From Acidovorax sp. GBBC 1281 (GTDB taxonomy: Bacteria; Pseudomonadota; Gammaproteobacteria; Burkholderiales; Burkholderiaceae_C), in the NCBI RefSeq assembly GCF_028473645.1, contig NZ_CP097269.1, positions 1,062,001-1,126,000 on the forward strand: a DNA stretch of 64,000 nt, given 5' to 3'. Positions 52,500 through 64,000 of the stretch are shown here, in pieces. Both the position numbers and the translations under genes were made by a program. Under the pieces are notes generated by a model that was not told the origin of the DNA, made no database searches, and worked only from the letters and a program-made list of their open reading frames with translations. The stretch's first letter is position 1. The number at the start of each line of letters is the position of its first letter.

Positions 52500-52868
52500 C
52501 TAAACACGGGCCAGCTCCACGCGGGCCGCCCGCGCGGGCCCCTGCGCACCGCGGGTGCCGCCATGGGCGGCGGGCCCGCACCGCCAGGCCAGCCACGCGG
52601 CCTGCGTGCCTTCGGCGCTCACCCGCAGCGTGGCGGGGCCGGGCAGGTCCAGGCGCTCGCCGGCCGCCAGAAAATAGTCTTCCTCACAGCCATCGCAGGT
52701 GACCCAGGCGCAGCCCTGCAGTACCTCCAGCACGGCGGACTGATGGGCCGGGCAGGCGAGGGTCTGCACGGGTGCGAGCGGCCGCAGGGTCCGGTGCGTG
52801 GCCGATGGGCCGGCGGCGGCAGGCAAGGAGGGCAGGGCGGCCGGGGTGGGGTGCGTCAGGGAGTTCAT
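52500..52868 (-). CDS. DUF2917 domain protein
   Basis: Protein of 122 residues whose centre matches the DUF2917 pattern: a cupin-like strand set LEVLQGCAWVTCDGCEEDYF, then LAAGERLDLPG. The N- and C-termini are low-complexity. ATG 52868 (MNSLTHPTP) was chosen; the open frame continues through the divergent promoter region without support. It is convergent with hisD, the two genes abutting, and is divergently transcribed from the MocR-type regulator, so it may be that regulator's target. Confidence 0.75.
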   Translation of the reverse strand: MNSLTHPTPAALPSLPAAAGPSATHRTLRPLAPVQTLACPAHQSAVLEVLQGCAWVTCDGCEEDYFLAAGERLDLPGPATLRVSAEGTQAAWLAWRCGPAAHGGTRGAQGPARAARVELARV

Positions 52869-53842
52869 GGGATCGACTGTGCGGGCGCGCGCCGGGACGC
52901 ACCAGCCACAGTCGCCCGCCATGTCGGCCAGTGCAGATGCGCCGCAGGGCCATCTGTGTGGTACCGGTTGGCACCCATCTGTACTGCTGCATCCATTGCT
53001 GGGCAGTACAGAATCGCACGATGGACGCCGCCGACACCACGCCCCTTTATCTGCAGATCGCGGCGCAACTGGCCGAGCTGGTGCGCAACGGCACGCTGGC
53101 ACGGGGCGAAAAACTGCCGTCGGTGCGCGAGCTGGCCCGCCAGCGGGCGGTGGCGCAGAGCATTGTGGTGCAGGCCTACCACTGGCTGGAGGATGCGCGC
53201 CTCATCACCGCGCGCCCGCGCTCGGGCTTCTTCGTCGCGGCGCGCCCCGCCAGCCTGCCCGAGCCGACCACGCCACGCCCGATGCGCCGTGCGCGCGAGG
53301 TTTCGGTGGACTGGCTGGGCCAGCGCATCCTGGGGCGCGATCAGCCGGCCGACATGGTGTCCTACAGCAGCGGCACGCCCGGGCCCGAACTCTTCAACCC
53401 CGACCGGGTGCGGCGCGCCGTCACCCGCGCGGCGCAGCGCCACCGCCACCTGCTGTGCACCTATCCGTCCTCGTCCGGCCACGAGGAGGCGCGCCGCGCG
53501 CTCGCCCGCTATGCCGTGGGGCTGGGCTGCAGCCTCGACCCCGAGAACATCGTGATCACCGGGGGCTGCATGGACAGCATCGTGCTGTGCCTGCGGGCGG
53601 TCACGCGGCCCGGCGACATCGTGGCACTGGAGTCGCCCACGCATTTCTCGTTTCTGGAAGTGCTGCAGGGGTTGCACCTGCGCGCGCTCGAAATCCCCAC
53701 CCACCCGCGCCACGGCCTGTCGCTGGACGCGCTGCAGCTGGCGCTGGAGACGCAGCCCGTCAAGGCCGTGATGGTGGTGCCCACGCTCAGCAATCCGCTG
53801 GGCAGCTGCATGCCGCAGGCCGAGCGGCGGCGCCTGGCGCAC

Positions 53843-54937
53843 CTAGTGTCCTGTCCCGTTAATTCGCCCGCATAGTCTGGCGAGTTTTTCGAGGATGGAG
53901 TCTGCTGTAGCTGTCCAAGTAAACGGCTGGCAGGACTGGTTGTAATTCGCGATGAATGTGTCGATCTTGTTGATCAGATCCTTCACGCTGGTGAACGAGC
54001 CACGGCGGATTGCCCGCGTGGTGATGATCGAGAAGAAGCGCTCGACCTGATTGAGCCAGCTTGAATAGGTCGGAACGAAGTGCATGTGCCAGCGAGGCCG
54101 CTCGGCCAACCAAGCGCGCACCTTTGGATGCTTGTGGCTGGCGTAGTTATCAGCTATGCAGTGCACATCCAGTTCGTCGGGCACTGCCTTGTCGATGGCG
54201 CGCAGGAAGGCAAGGAACTCTTGATGACGATGCCGGGGCCGGCACTGCGCGATCACTTGGCCATTCATCACGTTCAGGGCCGCGAACAAGGTGGTGGTGC
54301 CGTGGCGCACGTAGTCGTGCGTGACACCTTCGACATAGCCAAACCCCATTGGCAGCATCGGCTGCGTACGCTCCAAAGCTTGGCATTGGCTCTTCTCGTC
54401 CACGCACAGCACCAGCGCGTTGTCAGGTGGGTTCAGGTACAGCCCCACAACGTCGCGCAGCTTCTCGATGAACAGCGGATCGGTCGACAGCTTGAAGCTG
54501 TCGGCCCGGTGCGGCTTGAGGTTGAAGGTCTGCAGATAGCGCGCCACCGTGCTCTTGCTGATGCCCGTATCGGCGGCCAGCGTGCGGGTGCTCCAGTGGG
54601 TACCCCCATCAGCAGGCTTGGTGTGCAACGTCTTGGTAATCAACTCAGCAACACGCTCGTCATCTACCGTGCGGGGGCGACCCGGGCGCAACTCGTCGTA
54701 AAGCCCTGCAATGCGATGGCGCGCATAGCGCCCGCGCCACTTGGTGACAGTGCTACGACTGATCCCCAGAGCCTGCGCAACCGCGGTGCTGGCTTTATCT
54801 GTGCCTTCGCAAGTCAGCACGATGCGCGCCCTGAGCGACAACGCCGCTGGCAGCGAACGTGATCGCGCCATGGACGTCAGTTCCGCGCGCTCCACTTCAC
54901 TAAGCGCAATTTCTGTTCGGGTCGTTGCATTGGGCAT
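53843..54937 (-). CDS. IS630-family transposase
   Basis: Full-length transposase of 364 residues. N-terminal helix-turn-helix pair (VAQALGISRSTVTKWRGRY and ADTGISKSTVARYL), then a DDE catalytic domain: LCVDEKSQC, CIADNYASHKHP and the final Glu in SSWLNQVERFF. Its stop codon overlaps the left terminal repeat. It differs from the transposase at the window start. Confidence 0.95.
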   Translation of the reverse strand: MPNATTRTEIALSEVERAELTSMARSRSLPAALSLRARIVLTCEGTDKASTAVAQALGISRSTVTKWRGRYARHRIAGLYDELRPGRPRTVDDERVAELITKTLHTKPADGGTHWSTRTLAADTGISKSTVARYLQTFNLKPHRADSFKLSTDPLFIEKLRDVVGLYLNPPDNALVLCVDEKSQCQALERTQPMLPMGFGYVEGVTHDYVRHGTTTLFAALNVMNGQVIAQCRPRHRHQEFLAFLRAIDKAVPDELDVHCIADNYASHKHPKVRAWLAERPRWHMHFVPTYSSWLNQVERFFSIITTRAIRRGSFTSVKDLINKIDTFIANYNQSCQPFTWTATADSILEKLARLCGRINGTGH

Positions 54938-55006: not shown

Positions 55007-55650
55007 GCCGCGCGCCACGGCATGGCCGTGATCGAGGACGCGATCTACAACGACCTCGTGGAAGTGGACGACCTCCGCCGCACGGTCAAGTCGTACGACA
55101 CCACCGGCCACGTCATGCTGTGCGATTCGTTTTCCAAGACTTTGGCGCCGGGCCTGCGCCTGGGCTGGGTGGAGGCGGGCCGCTGGAGCCAGGCGATGCG
55201 CGCCATCAAGGATCTGCAGGCCGGCGGGCAGTCGGCGGTGCTGGAACTGGCGCTGGCCGACCTCATCACGCAGGCCGGCCATGCGGCATCGATGCGGCAG
55301 TTGCGCGCGGCGGTCGCGGCCCGCATGGACGCGGTGCGCGGTGTGATCGCCGCGCATTTTCCGCCAGGCACGCGCGTCAGCGATCCCCCGGGCGGCCTGC
55401 TGTTGTGGCTGGAACTGCCGCGCGCCCTCGACTCGGTGCTGCTGCACGAGGCCTGCCTGGCCGATGGCCTGCTGATCGCACCGGGCACGGTGTTCAGCGC
55501 CAGCGGGCGGTTTCGCAACTGCCTGCGCATCGGCGTGGGCGGCGACTGGACGCCCGCGCACCTGCAGGGCCTGCGCACGGTGGGGGAGACGGCCACCCGG
55601 ATGCTGCGGTCGGCCGCCATGCGTGTGGCTTGAAACCCCACAGGAAAATC

Positions 55651-55681: not shown

Positions 55682-55693
55682 AGCATTTGCCCC

Positions 55694-55918
55694 ATGAAGA
55701 ACGTGACCATCACCATGGACGACGCTGCGGCCGAGTGGGTGCGCGTGGAAGCGGCCAAGCGCGGCAGCAGCGTGTCGCGGCTGGTGGGCGAATGGCTGGC
55801 CGAGAAGATGCGGCAGGAAGATGCCTATGCCCAGGCCATGCGCGAGGCGCTGAGCTTCGAGAGCTGGGGCGCCTCCAACGGCCCCTACGTGCCGCGCGAG
55901 ATCCTGTTCCAGCGATGA
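55694..55918 (+). CDS. ribbon-helix-helix antitoxin, VapB-like
   Basis: Antitoxin candidate of 74 residues. The N-terminal half reads as a ribbon-helix-helix DNA-binding domain (KNVTITMDDAAAEWVRVEA, then SSVSRLVGEWLAEKM). The C-terminal half would wrap the toxin. Its stop overlaps the toxin start (ATGA). The perfect inverted repeat just upstream is a likely autoregulatory operator. Confidence 0.8.
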   Translation: MKNVTITMDDAAAEWVRVEAAKRGSSVSRLVGEWLAEKMRQEDAYAQAMREALSFESWGASNGPYVPREILFQR

Positions 55919-56367
55919 GCACCGCCCCGATCTTCGTCGATACCGAAGTGCTGCTGTCCAGCGTGGACGACCGCGATCCGGCCCGGCAGGCGCGTGCGCG
56001 CGAATGGCTCACTTTCTGCTGGCAGACACGCAGCGGCCGCGTCAGCTCGCAGGTGCTCAACGAGCTGTACAACCAGGCCATTCAGCGCTTTCGGGGGCCG
56101 CACACGCTGCAGCAGGTGCGCGCGCAGGTGCGGCGCTTTCGCGTGTGGCAGCCGCCGCACCTGGACGCCTACACCGTCGACGGCGCGTGGGATCTGCAGG
56201 ACCGCTACGGCCTGGGCTATTGGGATGCGCTCATCCTGTCGTCTGCGCACCAGCAGGGCTGCCGCTACCTGCTGACCGAGGCGCTGCCGCACGACCAGTC
56301 CATGGATGCCGTGCGCCCCATCAACCCCTTCCTCATCGCCCCCCACGAACTGGACACCGCCGAATGA
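55915..56367 (+). CDS. PIN-domain toxin, VapC-like
   Basis: Predicted PIN-domain ribonuclease of 150 residues. The acidic active-site set is recognisable: Asp9 in IFVDTEVLL, Glu50 in VLNELYNQA, Asp104 in GYWDALILSSA, and possibly Glu122. It is paired with the upstream antitoxin by a four-base overlap. Its stop also overlaps the hisC start by four bases, so toxin and hisC are translationally coupled. The target RNA is unknown. Confidence 0.82.
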   Translation: MSTAPIFVDTEVLLSSVDDRDPARQARAREWLTFCWQTRSGRVSSQVLNELYNQAIQRFRGPHTLQQVRAQVRRFRVWQPPHLDAYTVDGAWDLQDRYGLGYWDALILSSAHQQGCRYLLTEALPHDQSMDAVRPINPFLIAPHELDTAE

Positions 56368-58906: not shown

Positions 58907-59653
58907 ATGCTGCTCATCCCCGCCATCGACCTCAAGGACGGACACTGCGTGCGCCTCAAGCAAGGTGACATGGACCAATCCACCACCTTCGGAGAAGACC
59001 CGGGCGCCATGGCCCGCAAGTGGGTGGAAGCCGGGGCGCGACGCCTGCACCTGGTGGACCTGAACGGCGCCTTCGCCGGCACGCCCAAGAACTACACGGC
59101 CATCAAGTCCATCCTGAAGGAAGTCGGCGACGACATCCCCGTGCAGCTCGGCGGCGGCATCCGCGATCTGGACACGATCGAGAAGTACATCGACGGCGGC
59201 CTGCGCTACGTGATCATCGGCACCGCCGCCGTGAAGAACCCCGGGTTCCTGAAAGACGCCTGCAGCGCCTTCGGTGGCCACATCATCGTGGGCCTGGATG
59301 CCAAGGACGGCAAGGTCGCCACCGACGGCTGGAGCAAGCTCACGGGCCACGAAGTGGTCGATTTGGCCAAGAAGTTCGAGGACTGGGGCGTGGAGTCGAT
59401 CATCTACACCGACATCGGCCGCGACGGCATGCTCTCGGGCATCAACATCGACGCCACGGTCAAGCTGGCGCAATCGCTCACCATTCCGGTCATCGCCTCG
59501 GGCGGCTTGGCCAACATGGCCGACATCGAGCAGCTGTGCGCGGTGGAAGGCGAAGGCGTCGAAGGCGTGATCTGCGGCCGAGCGATCTATTCCGGCGACC
59601 TGGATTTCGCCGCGGCGCAGGCCCGTGCGGACGAATTGAACGGCGCTGCCTGA
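58907..59653 (+). CDS. hisA: phosphoribosylformimino-5-aminoimidazole carboxamide ribotide isomerase
   Basis: TIM-barrel isomerase of the histidine pathway, 248 residues. Catalytic Asp8 in IPAIDLKDG and the second Asp in [10 protein letters not shown]. Phosphate-binding loops GGGIRD and [10 protein letters not shown]. It is the last his gene present; in relatives hisF and hisI usually follow at once. Confidence 0.96.
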
Positions 59654-59666
59654 CGCCTCGGTCCGG

Positions 59667-59757
59667 CCGCCTCAGGATGCCTTGCGGCGACTGAGGCGGG
59701 ATTCAGGCTCCGGTCCTTGCAAGCCCCGGTGCCGTGCCATCCGGACCATCGGTCCGG
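59667..59757. terminator. inverted repeats between convergent hisA and the spherulin-4 gene
   Basis: Two GC-rich inverted repeats, CCGCCTCAG...CTGAGGCGG (59667-59699) and CCGGACC-atc-GGTCCGG (59741-59757). No T-tracts follow, so they may act as structural barriers or processing sites rather than classical terminators. Confidence 0.4.
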
Positions 59758-59824
59758 CGGCTTTCCATCCAACGCGATTGCCACCGAGCGCCAGGCAACG
59801 CCCGGCACCAAGCGCGCTTCGGGC

Positions 59825-61030
59825 TCAGCAGCCCGTGACGGCCCGTCCCTGGTTCACCGCAGCCACCGTCTGCAGCAGGTTCGTCCAGTACGAAGGCAGG
59901 GCGTCCCAGGGGTTGCCGACGTCCGCCACCGGGTCGTATTCGAGGTTCGTCATGTAGATGGGACCGGCGTTGTACCGGGCCGAGGCGGCGGTCTGCACGG
60001 CCTGCTGCATGTCGGCGCAGGTGGCGGTGTTGTGCACCAGCGAGCTTTGGCGGCTGTTGGCCAGGGTGTACAGCCAGGGCGCGGTGCGCGGGTCGTAGCT
60101 GGCGTAGGTGCTGTTGCGCCCTTCGAAGGTGACGAGCACATCGGCCACCGCGGCGTAGCCGGGGGCAGGCACCATGCCGGGGTTGCCGATCACGCGCAGG
60201 CTGGCGTCCTTGGCCTTGATGTAGCTGTAGATCTCGCGGTAGAAATCGAGCCGCGTGGTCTCGGAGGCCATTTCGTCCAGGAAGATGCCGCTGATCGCCC
60301 CGCGCCCGAAGAGCGCGATGTAGCTGTCGATGTTGGCCTTGATGCTGGCCAGCGACCGCGAGCCCGTACCGTAGCCGGTATAGACATAGCCCACTACCTT
60401 GCCGCCGGCCGAAACGAACGCGTTGACGGCGCTCACATAGCTGGCCTCCGCCGTGGTGAACACCCCGTTGTTGGGGTTCAGGATGGCGGTGACGGACACC
60501 GCCGGATTGGCCGCCGCGCCGCTGGCCAGCAGGGCCCAGCCCTGGCCCGACGAGGGGTGGAAGTAGGCGGGCACCAGCACTTCCAGCGCCGCAGGGGCCG
60601 GGCGCAGGTACACCACGCGGGTGGCGGTGACCGACTGGCCGGACACGCTGGTGGTGGCACTGATCTCCTGCCGGCCTGCCGCGGCGCCGGACAGGGTGGC
60701 GGTCGCCACGCCCGCGCGGGTGGCGCTGGTGGCCGAGAACGCGCCGGGCAGGGGGGAGAAGTTCACCGCCGTGCCATCGGCCGCGTCGGCGCCGTTCACC
60801 GTGACGCGCGCGCTGATGGCCAGGGCAGCATTCGCGTTGAAGACGGCCTCCGCCTGCGGAGCGCTGAGGGTGATGGCGATGCTGGTCGGGGTGGGGGGCA
60901 CCGGCGTCGTCGGGTCGGTGGAACCCCCTCCACCGCCGCCGCCGCAGGCGGCCAGCAAGGCGGCGAGTGACAGGCCGCACCAGCGGGTGATGCGGGCAAT
61001 GAGGGTGACGCGGGCGGGAATGCGGGGCAT
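59825..61030 (-). CDS. spherulin-4 (GH135-like) lipoprotein A
   Basis: Predicted lipoprotein of 401 residues: lipobox LAAC (Cys29), a poly-Gly/Pro tether, an Ig-like N-terminal domain (about 50-140), then a spherulin-4 TIM-barrel domain (about 147-395). The domain begins ALEVLVPAYFHPSS, with VTAILNPNNGV and GYVYTGYGTG typical of the family. Acidic residues at the expected catalytic places are Asp252-Glu253 (GIFLDEMAS) and Glu303 (VTFEGRN). The fungal member Sph3 hydrolyses GalNAc polymer. Paralogue of the next gene, 86 bp away, and in line with pelG, which suggests a role in Pel polysaccharide processing. Confidence 0.82.
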   Translation of the reverse strand: MPRIPARVTLIARITRWCGLSLAALLAACGGGGGGGSTDPTTPVPPTPTSIAITLSAPQAEAVFNANAALAISARVTVNGADAADGTAVNFSPLPGAFSATSATRAGVATATLSGAAAGRQEISATTSVSGQSVTATRVVYLRPAPAALEVLVPAYFHPSSGQGWALLASGAAANPAVSVTAILNPNNGVFTTAEASYVSAVNAFVSAGGKVVGYVYTGYGTGSRSLASIKANIDSYIALFGRGAISGIFLDEMASETTRLDFYREIYSYIKAKDASLRVIGNPGMVPAPGYAAVADVLVTFEGRNSTYASYDPRTAPWLYTLANSRQSSLVHNTATCADMQQAVQTAASARYNAGPIYMTNLEYDPVADVGNPWDALPSYWTNLLQTVAAVNQGRAVTGC

Positions 61031-61116
61031 GGGATGTCCTTGGCGGGCGGGAAAGGGGATGGCGAGGGGTTGGATGGGGACTGGTGCAATCGGCGTGCCG
61101 GGTGCGGATCTGCGGG

Positions 61117-62337
61117 TCAGCAGGTGGGCAGCGTGGCGCCCCGGTTGACGGAATCCACGGTGCCCAGCAGTCGGGTCCAGTAGGCCGGAAGGGTGTCCCA
61201 GGGGTTGCCTTCCTGCGTGTCGGGGTTGAAGGTGTCGTCGGTGACGTAGATCACGCCGCTGTTCACGCGGGCCGTGGCCGCCGCACGCACCGCGCCCTGC
61301 ATGGCCGCGCAGTCGGCCGCGTCGTGCACCAGGGCGTTCTGGCGCGTGTTGGCCATCTGGTACAGCCAGCCGCCGCTGGCGCGGGGATCGTAGTCGGCAA
61401 AGGCCGCGTTGCGGTTCTCGAAAGTCACCAAGGTATCGGCCACGGCGGCATACGCGGCGTTGGGCACGGTGCCCGGGTTGCCCACCACGCGCAAGCTGGC
61501 GCCTTTGCTCTTGATGTAGTCGAAGAGCTGCCGGTAGTAGTTGATCCGGCCGGGCGCGGACGACATCTCGTCGATGAAAAAGCCGCTCACCAGCCCGGTA
61601 CCGTAGAGGCTGAGGTATTTGTCGATGTTGCCCTTGACCTTGCTGATCGAGCGCGATCCGTAACCGGTGTACACGTAGCCCAGCAGCTTGCCGCCCGCCT
61701 GCACGAAGGCCGTGGCGGCAGCCGTGAACTCGGGGTTGGCGCGGGTGAAGACGCCGTTGCTGGGGTTGAGAATGGCCGTGATGCTGACGGAGGGGTACGC
61801 GCTGGCGCCAGCGGTCATGGCGTCCCAGGGCGAGCCCGCCGAGGGGTAGAAATACGCGGGGACCAGCACTTCCATGGGGGCGGCGGCCGGGCGCACGTAA
61901 AGGATGCGCGAGGCGGTCACGGCGCCGCCGCTCGAGGCCACTGAAGCGGTCAGGGTCTGGCGCCCCAGCCCGGCGGGGGTGAAGGTGGTGCCGGCCTCAC
62001 CGCCGCGCAGCGCGGCCACCGGCGGCGCAAAGCTGCCCGAGGTGGCGGAAAAATCGACGGACACGCCGTCAGTAATGGCGCTGGCGACCCCCGCCTGCAC
62101 CGTGAGGGAGACCGGCACGCTGGCTCCGGCGTCGAATACATCCTGGTCGAGCGGGGCGGCGAAGGCGGCCTGCGCACCTGCCGTGGCGGCTTCGGCTTTT
62201 TGCGCCGAGGTTTCTGTGGGTTCACTGCTGCCGCCCCCGCAGCCGGCCAGCCCTGCGGCGAGCAATCCGGAGACCGACCAGAACGACAGCCGCAGCGCAG
62301 CGCGGCTCGGCAAGGCACGATGGATCGCGTTCGGCAT
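61117..62337 (-). CDS. spherulin-4 (GH135-like) lipoprotein B
   Basis: Second spherulin-4 lipoprotein, 406 residues. Lipobox LAGC (Cys33), a linker, an Ig-like domain (about 62-148) and the catalytic-type domain (about 155-400) starting MEVLVPAYFYPSAG. Asp256-Glu257 (GFFIDEMSS) and Glu307 (VTFENRN) match lipoprotein A. ATG 62337 has a strong AAGGGAGG upstream; the frame continues through pelG without relevance. It starts 71 bp after the pelG stop, in the same direction. Confidence 0.82.
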   Translation of the reverse strand: MPNAIHRALPSRAALRLSFWSVSGLLAAGLAGCGGGSSEPTETSAQKAEAATAGAQAAFAAPLDQDVFDAGASVPVSLTVQAGVASAITDGVSVDFSATSGSFAPPVAALRGGEAGTTFTPAGLGRQTLTASVASSGGAVTASRILYVRPAAAPMEVLVPAYFYPSAGSPWDAMTAGASAYPSVSITAILNPSNGVFTRANPEFTAAATAFVQAGGKLLGYVYTGYGSRSISKVKGNIDKYLSLYGTGLVSGFFIDEMSSAPGRINYYRQLFDYIKSKGASLRVVGNPGTVPNAAYAAVADTLVTFENRNAAFADYDPRASGGWLYQMANTRQNALVHDAADCAAMQGAVRAAATARVNSGVIYVTDDTFNPDTQEGNPWDTLPAYWTRLLGTVDSVNRGATLPTC

Positions 62338-62408
62338 GGCGCCTCCCTTTTTTCTGTGGCCCGGGTGGATTTCAGTTTTTTGCCATTGTCCACCGAACGC
62401 GGGCCGGG

Positions 62409-63782
62409 CTACTGCAGCATGAAGGTTTCGTACTCCAGCCGGTTGAGTTGGCGCGACAGCAGGTACATGCCGGTGCACAGCGTGAGCAGCGTGGACAGCG
62501 CGAAACCGTAGCCATACAGGGCCGCGCCGGCATACAGCGTGAAGCCGGTGAGCGCGATGTTCAGCAGCACGAACTGCACGCACAGCAGCAGCACGATGCG
62601 GCGCTGGTCCAGGTAGAAGAACACGTTCAGGATGGCCATCAGCCCCACCTGCAGGCCCGCGCCGATCACCTGCACGTGCAGCAGCGGCAGGTACAGCCGC
62701 GAGATGCCCAGCACGTCCAGCAGCGCCGGGCCAGCCACGAAGGTGACCAGGATGGCCAGCGTCTGGATCTTGCCGATCTCGCCCAGCCCTTGCTGGATCG
62801 AATAGACCATCTCGTCGCGCATGGCCTCGATGTACTCGAGCGAGCCGCCGCTGCGCACCGCGTCGTAGAACTTGTCGTAGTACTCGACGAAGTCGGTCTC
62901 GATGCGCACCAGGAACACCGCCATGCCCGGAATGATGGACAGGTAGGCCAGGAACACCGGCAGGTCGTAGATGAGCGATGCGCGCAGCCCGCCGATGATG
63001 TTCTGGGACGTCGGCGGGAAGTACCAGAACATGAACTTGTCGATCCAGATCCCGAAGTTGTAGAGGAACCCGATAGCCACGAGCGACGGATACAGCAGCT
63101 TGCGCTCCGCGAAGTCGAACGCGATCAGCCGCCCCTTGGGGTTGAATTCCTGCACCACCAGGATCCACATGCCGGCCAGCAGCAGGTAGTTGCCCAGCAC
63201 GAAGCCCGTCAGCAGCCCCTCCATGCCCCAGGGGCGCATGAAGAGCGAGCCGATCACGATCACCGCGTAGGCCAGCCCGAACAGCACCACGATCTCCTTG
63301 TAGCGCTTCATGCCCGACAGCAGCACCGTCAGCACCCACACGTCGCACATCAGGGTGAAGCCCGCCAGCATCAGCATGCGGTACACCAGCCCCAGGTTGG
63401 GCAGCAGCAGGAACAGCGCGATCGTGCCCAGGGCACCGGCCACGAGCGTGACCACCAGCAGCAGCCCGTGCAGGTTGGGCAGGATGAGGTCCTTGCGCTT
63501 TTCGAAGAGCCGGTCGGACACGAAGCGCGTGAAGGCCAGCTGCACCAGCCCCGTGAGGATCAGGCTGCCCGCCACCATGTAGGTGACCGAGGTCTGGAAC
63601 TGCGTGACCAGAAAGCCCGGCACCACCACGCTGGCGCTGAAGATACCGATGAGCAGGATGCCCACGATGGAGAAGACCCACGGGCCCGAGCCGATCACGC
63701 CCGCATAGGCGTAGGCCTGCACCAGGCTCACCAGCGTGTTCTTGCGCAGCATGCGGCGCAGTTCGAATCCGATGCCAGCCAT
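62409..63782 (-). CDS. pelG: Pel polysaccharide export membrane protein PelG
   Basis: Polytopic inner-membrane protein of 457 residues with about 12 helices, needed with PelD, PelE and PelF to make and translocate Pel, a GalNAc-rich exopolysaccharide of biofilms. The N-terminus MAGIGFELRRMLRKNT and the region AYAGVIGSGPWVFSI are hallmarks of PelG. Its start overlaps the pelF stop (ATGA). The rest of the pel operon lies beyond the right edge. Confidence 0.93.
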   Translation of the reverse strand: MAGIGFELRRMLRKNTLVSLVQAYAYAGVIGSGPWVFSIVGILLIGIFSASVVVPGFLVTQFQTSVTYMVAGSLILTGLVQLAFTRFVSDRLFEKRKDLILPNLHGLLLVVTLVAGALGTIALFLLLPNLGLVYRMLMLAGFTLMCDVWVLTVLLSGMKRYKEIVVLFGLAYAVIVIGSLFMRPWGMEGLLTGFVLGNYLLLAGMWILVVQEFNPKGRLIAFDFAERKLLYPSLVAIGFLYNFGIWIDKFMFWYFPPTSQNIIGGLRASLIYDLPVFLAYLSIIPGMAVFLVRIETDFVEYYDKFYDAVRSGGSLEYIEAMRDEMVYSIQQGLGEIGKIQTLAILVTFVAGPALLDVLGISRLYLPLLHVQVIGAGLQVGLMAILNVFFYLDQRRIVLLLCVQFVLLNIALTGFTLYAGAALYGYGFALSTLLTLCTGMYLLSRQLNRLEYETFMLQ

Positions 63783-64000
63783 CAGCGGGGGCCCTCCGTC
63801 TTCTGGAACGCGGTCTCGTACACGCGGCGGTAGCGGTCGAACATCATGGTGTCGGTGTAGTAGCGCTCCACGCGCGCGATGGCCGCCCGGCTGGCGCTCT
63901 CCCAGGCGGCGGGGTCGTTGAGCAGCGACAGCGAGGCGTCGGCCAGGCGCTGCGGGTCGGCGATCGGCACCACCTTGCCCGAGGCGCCCAGCGCCTTGTC
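63782..64000 (-). CDS. pelF: Pel glycosyltransferase PelF, C-terminal end
   Basis: The last 72 codons of a glycosyltransferase; the start lies outside the window. It reads through GASGKVVPIADPQRLADAS and ends ETAFQKTEGPR, consistent with the C-terminal helices of a GT4 enzyme. The identification rests mainly on the four-base overlap with pelG, the normal order in pel operons. PelF polymerises UDP-GalNAc-type precursors in the cytoplasm. Confidence 0.8.
   Translation of the reverse strand, partial: DKALGASGKVVPIADPQRLADASLSLLNDPAAWESASRAAIARVERYYTDTMMFDRYRRVYETAFQKTEGPR

Follow-up and report, generated by a model that had tools for sequence, protein, structure and literature searches.

Pel is a polysaccharide made as poly-N-acetylgalactosamine (poly-GalNAc), deacetylated by PelA and exported by PelB, as described in PMC12022489. 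Galactosaminidases encoded together with pel include the glycoside hydrolase family 166 (GH166) domain of PelA in Pseudomonas aeruginosa and the stand-alone PelAH of Bacillus cereus, the latter being, according to PMC7112168, an accessory gene found next to the pel operons of Gram-positive bacteria. The pel locus of Streptococcus intermedius likewise carries an extra, aggregate-active glycoside hydrolase, SIR_1591 (PMC12345266), and with PelAH it makes extra hydrolases beside pel a known theme. Sph3, from the galactosaminogalactan cluster of Aspergillus, is a fungal GH135 enzyme of demonstrated activity. Here we analysed a stretch of 64,000 nucleotides of Acidovorax sp. GBBC 1281 (contig NZ_CP097269.1, positions 1,062,001 to 1,126,000; "the window"), at the end of which two genes for bacterial GH135 lipoproteins, SphA and SphB, stand behind a pel operon. 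In contrast to Sph3, with which they were compared over its crystallised domain, these proteins carry an immunoglobulin-like (Ig-like) domain and are known from sequence.

The pelG gene (62409..63782, minus strand), coding for a putative Pel exporter of 457 amino acids that matches PF16933 over its full length (E 1e-156), is followed on the same strand after 71 bp by sphA (61117..62337, minus strand, 406 amino acids) and after a further 86 bp by sphB (59825..61030, minus strand, 401 amino acids). Scans of positions 59600-62500 returned no promoter-like sites and two terminator-like sites against 1.4 expected, one within SphA and the other on the opposite strand at the SphA start, with none in the gaps on the coding strand. 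SphA and SphB are the sole Spherulin4 matches of the 5.7 Mb genome, which contains one PelG match.

Both proteins, which are 49% identical, match the Spherulin4 profile PF12138: SphA with 162.8 bits (E 1.3e-47, profile positions 1-238 of 239) and SphB with 162.4 bits (E 1.8e-47, positions 1-239 of 239, residues 150-389). Neither matched the GH114/GH166-type profile PF03537 at E values up to 1. SphA forms a TIM barrel like that of Sph3, and structural comparison matched it to the GH135 fold. The three acids corresponding to Sph3 D166, E167 and E222, catalytic residues as named in PMC10485009, are all present in both proteins according to sequence alignment with the Sph3 structure 5c5g rather than spatial overlay. 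In SphB, the phmmer alignment with 5c5g (E 3.1e-16) places them at D252-E253 (60272..60277, minus strand) and E303 (60122..60124, minus strand); in SphA they were located through the SphB alignment and a family alignment at D256-E257 (61567..61572, minus strand) and E307 (61417..61419, minus strand). The Ig-like beta-sandwich domain of SphA spans 61885..62184 (minus strand), and that of SphB 60596..60889 (minus strand), where the Big_1 match of 19.6 bits is under the Big_1 cut-off and the sequence aligns to the Ig-like region of SphA.

Our own pattern search found a lipobox preceded by a hydrophobic stretch in both proteins, LAGC with Cys33 in SphA and LAAC with Cys29 in SphB. The residues after the cysteine are glycines; glycine and not aspartate directly follows it, which under the sorting rule of E. 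coli, if it applies here, would make the outer membrane the most likely site of anchoring. Comparison with the two closest relatives shows purifying selection on both copies, with dN/dS of 0.19-0.20 in SphA and 0.15 in SphB, as against 0.05-0.06 in PelG. Among the best 80 of 145 relatives, the nearest named ones by identity to SphA were from Acidovorax sp. SUPP3334 and Paracidovorax valerianellae, which places the window in the Comamonadaceae and probably in Paracidovorax; no relatives of SphA were found on viral contigs, and the 11 plasmid records held distant ones, every one below 60% identity. A first-pass annotation of this DNA had proposed two lipoprotein genes behind pelG in the same direction, with an Asp-Glu pair and a downstream Glu where Sph3 has its catalytic acids, and re-reading of the coordinates, the PF12138 matches, the alignments and the lipobox search all agree with it, as does the structural match to Sph3, whose absence it had named as counting against the idea. 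Its interpretation of the pair as Pel hydrolases is partly supported. We consider it reasonably probable that SphA and SphB are envelope-tethered GH135 endo-alpha-1,4-N-acetylgalactosaminidases, held on an Ig-like stalk and cutting the cell's own Pel, with catalytic activity, outer-membrane location and substrate being what we infer from the features above and from the genomic distribution below.

The operon in front of these genes is complete and in order (pelABCDEFG), with pelA-B-C-D-E-F upstream of pelG on the same strand. The pelF end overlaps the pelG start by one base, and since pelF runs past the window edge (3' part at 63783..64000, minus strand), the full gene was taken from locus L004. 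Domain matches identified the PelB barrel, the GGDEF domain of PelD, the DUF3492/glycosyltransferase of PelF and PelG, and PelC (LpoB-like, 22.4 bits) and PelE (tetratricopeptide repeats) were assigned by gene position and fold class. PelA, of 978 amino acids, aligns with the solved PelA 9cgy (E 1.5e-190) and with the isolated hydrolase domain 5tcb (E 4.5e-49). Its GH166 Asp/Glu pair and the checked deacetylase residues, with roles as given in PMC12022489, are present. The GH166 pair was intact in all 39 pelA loci compared, the window's genome included; 38 of them also kept the deacetylase residues, and L116 did not align in that region. The earlier suggestion that the lipoproteins might act in place of the PelA hydrolase domain is thus not supported, and we reject it. 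PelA matches PF03537, and as its intact hydrolase domain is the sole GH114-type match of the genome, the lipoproteins would constitute an added, second kind of galactosaminidase and not a replacement.

If the enzymes are active, their likeliest role would be on acetylated polymer, because Sph3 cuts acetylated poly-GalNAc but not P. aeruginosa Pel in its native, partly deacetylated state: in PMC9135694, re-acetylated Pel was cut by Sph3 and native Pel was not. Lipid-anchored SphA and SphB would then cut, at the envelope, those stretches of Pel that the PelA deacetylase leaves acetylated, so as to remove or shorten insufficiently modified chains in the course of export, or to trim Pel that is still acetylated at the cell surface. 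Polymer that is partly deacetylated would be left to the GH166 domain of PelA. Polymer synthesis in Aspergillus requires Sph3, whose proposed target is the fully acetylated chain as it emerges from the synthase (PMC12054363), and the enzyme disrupts aggregates of S. intermedius, with a GalNAc-rich polymer (PMC12345266). According to PMC9894940, it is the PelA hydrolase that generates the short, secreted Pel of P. aeruginosa.

Co-occurrence of Spherulin4 and pelG was examined in family (299 genomes), order (300) and phylum (369) samples, with pelG counted above a cut-off in the first and last; G402 and G514 of the family sample and four phylum-sample genomes, with PelG matches under it, were left out of the count. 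In the family sample, Spherulin4 occurred in 36 genomes and pelG in 41, both together in 26 against 4.9 expected, that is, Spherulin4 was present in 26 of 41 pelG genomes compared to 10 of 258 without pelG (Fisher p 5e-19). The association holds at genus level (12/22 pelG genera vs 7/119 others, p 2e-7). The order sample gave 10 genomes with Spherulin4, 34 with pelG and nine with both, and after removal of the window's family pelG was still present in four of five Spherulin4 genomes vs 25 of 286 others (p 4e-4). In the phylum sample the figures were eight, 29 and six. In 15 of the 26 co-carrying family-sample genomes, from six genera, pelG is immediately followed by a co-oriented sph gene, and four of these genomes (G000, G171, G523, G556) have a tandem pair there. 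A scan of named genomes, again built on the best 80 of 145 relatives, comprised 77 loci with pelG just upstream in 32, ten of these with a tandem pair; the linked genera on that list include Paracidovorax, Acidovorax, Xylophilus, Giesbergeria, Simplicispira and Paenacidovorax, plus others. Between pelG and the nearest sph lie 8 to 180 bp (median 57; 45 rows, some genomes counted twice; L167, with its start not placed, and the window itself left out).

The catalytic acids were compared between linked and unlinked copies. Among 111 distinct domains, those from the scan of named genomes again limited to the best 80 of 145 relatives, D-E-E was found in 53/53 pel-linked domains, while the 58 unlinked ones read D-E-E in 41 cases, DGA in 13, DGT in two, and DGN and DQE in one each (L223_1, truncated, and G328u1, with no match, were left out of the triad and tree sets). 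Acid-less copies fall in a paralog clade that has intact members too. In a search of 30 genomes, pelG was absent from 11/11 with a dead fetched copy and present in 13/18 with an intact fetched unlinked copy, the five exceptions being L170, L188 and L213, clade members from metagenome-assembled genomes (MAGs), and the distant L226 and L230; in the thirtieth genome, L214, pelG occurs together with an intact linked copy and a dead one. These counts are phylogenetically non-independent, with two changes on the tree for the rows counted. Four further dead copies (G479, G516, G517, G585) came from the family sample. Within the paralog clade, which consists of Spherulin4 lipoproteins of Acidovorax and relatives, L200-L208, L210-L212 and L214-L217 have lost two of the three acids and are nonetheless retained, with L213 as an intact member; the acid-less paralog is possibly a polymer-binding pseudoenzyme. 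In one annotated locus (L202), genes for PEP carboxylase and flhC are found near the acid-less sph.

In a phylogeny of PelG from 40 loci, all 15 linked genomes fall into one clade of 19, together with G093, G133, G433 and G580, in which an intact sph is located away from pelG, so that all 19 genomes carry an intact copy. None of the remaining 21 rows is linked, and six have some Spherulin4 elsewhere. This distribution fits a single gain of sph beside pel early in the PelG clade, with separations later. One genome, G330, was left out of the tree: on its contig C5, PelG matches two pieces about 67 kb apart (near 145 kb and 212 kb, the first in L133), and its pelG looks broken and rearranged.

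Several observations weigh against the proposal that the enzymes cut the cell's own Pel, in addition to the inability of Sph3 to cut native Pel. Linkage to pelG requires only two changes on the PelG tree (eight on the Sph tree), and hisA lies convergently behind the last sph in 37/46 linked loci (five genomes counted twice); it also adjoins the unlinked sph of Delftia, L191 and G433, with pel elsewhere. Dead unlinked paralogs occur in the pel genomes G516, G585, L211, L214 and L215. Outside the window's family, the phylum sample showed no significant link (1/3, p 0.18), and its sole co-occurrence there, G819, reads DQE. Distant Spherulin4 proteins with the triad occur without pelG in G328, G343, G435, G473, G490 and G587 of the family sample, and no pelG was found in the three MAGs with an intact clade member (L170, L188, L213). 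The few changes on the tree and the position of hisA imply that the adjacency is mostly inherited and counts about once, and we rejected the use of each neighbouring pel-sph pair as independent evidence. Thus the expectation of the first-pass annotation that the pairing would recur in other pel operons was borne out, although largely through one inherited, hisA-adjacent block. Likewise, the idea that the acids were lost solely where pel was lost is weakened by the dead copies in pel genomes and by the two-change tree; as G516, G585, L211 and L215 hold a dead copy in addition to a linked intact one, decay is not simply tied to the loss of pel.

The pelG-free genomes with distant Spherulin4 genes leave some room for an outward action, in which the Sph enzymes would cut the GalNAc polymers of others, either fungal galactosaminogalactan, a known Sph3 substrate (PMC10485009, PMC12054363), or the Pel of other bacteria, to compete with them or to feed, in which case the association with pel would be historical. 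Such a role appears unlikely given that, in the Comamonadaceae clade, pelG is lacking in all 11 genomes searched whose fetched copy is dead, and that one PelG clade keeps an intact copy throughout, the three MAGs standing as exceptions. Moreover, a lipid anchor would hold the enzyme at its own cell and is a better fit to self-Pel, though foraging would still be compatible with it.

The conserved pel-sph-hisA block and the sph genes beside hisA with pel elsewhere are what would be expected of passenger genes that owe their place next to pel and hisA to inheritance alone and have some other envelope function. In Delftia (L187, L189), sph is separated from the pel operon, with pelG some 16.6 kb away in D. 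tsuruhatensis, and is still convergent with hisA at a distance of 95 bp. We regard passengers as decidedly improbable, since the co-occurrence holds at genus level and outside the family in the order sample. Inherited adjacency also leaves unexplained the intact copy kept across the PelG clade even where pel and sph are apart, as well as the intact copies, with pelG elsewhere, in the Delftia and Comamonas genomes searched. Finally, that the Sph domains are non-cutting tethers binding Pel to the cell, a task that the lipid anchor and Ig-like stalk would fit and that the acid-less clade retained in many genomes could perform, is very improbable in view of the three acids kept by every pel-linked domain, against two lost in 16/58 unlinked ones.

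As to the two copies, which the first-pass annotation read as a possible division of labour, SphA and SphB of Paracidovorax form separate, well-supported groups and the Xylophilus pair clusters with itself. Approximately unbiased (AU) tests reject a single clade of the first copies of both genera, or of the second copies (p 0.03 and 0.007). The separate groupings and the AU tests point to tandem doubling more than once, or to gene conversion that blurred the history. Sixteen sites are fixed between Paracidovorax SphA and SphB, mostly mild changes and with no clear specificity switch among them.

Elsewhere in the window, a regulator gene of the GntR/aminotransferase type, presumably MocR-like, seems to be interrupted: its two segments (52772-53875 and 55022-55633, both on the plus strand) flank a DDE_3 transposase gene (53843-54937, minus strand), presumably IS630-like. 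A PIN-domain gene (55687-56367), possibly the toxin of a toxin-antitoxin pair, stands among histidine biosynthesis genes.

Spherulin4 proteins of the same Pfam family and with the same acids are found in Methyloversatilis and Planctomycetota, but the ones read differ from SphA and SphB in having no lipobox and no pel gene in the locus; those of Caballeronia and Streptomyces without a pel neighbour come from a database listing alone. Among the matches listed in the open PubMed Central literature, we recognised no description of GH135 in a pel operon; the word spherulin is absent from the main texts of a pel operon survey (PMC7112194) and of PMC7112168, and the main text of PMC12345266 makes no mention of GH135. 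According to the structural paper PMC12054363 (2025), GH114, GH135 and GH166 consist mostly of bacterial proteins, few of them characterised, and why bacteria have four families of this kind is described there as unresolved. A GH135 in a pel operon provides a concrete, testable bacterial substrate for the family, with the acid-less natural paralogs as controls, and might be developed into a new means of combating biofilms whose matrix is rich in GalNAc.

Relative to the systems introduced above, SIR_1591 differs in its Gram-positive locus and in being described as a TIM barrel that carries DUF4832 and a transmembrane helix (PMC12345266), and PelA and PelAH in family, the GH166 domain being already present in the PelA of this genome with Sph as an extra, second type. 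The GH135 family, the lipid anchor and the coexistence with an intact PelA hydrolase are features that we have not seen described for the known extra pel hydrolases. In the fungal galactosaminogalactan cluster, a deacetylase and another galactosaminidase accompany the GH135 enzyme, and the proposed set of Sph and PelA would mirror it. As a tentative extension, one Gram-negative pel lineage may possess a two-cutter system parallel to the fungal toolkit, in which PelA, with its GH166 and deacetylase activities, would act on Pel that is partly deacetylated. GH135 enzymes on a lipid anchor, independently duplicated in several genera, would cut acetylated stretches only, the degree of deacetylation setting both the cut sites and the amount of polymer that stays bound to the cell.

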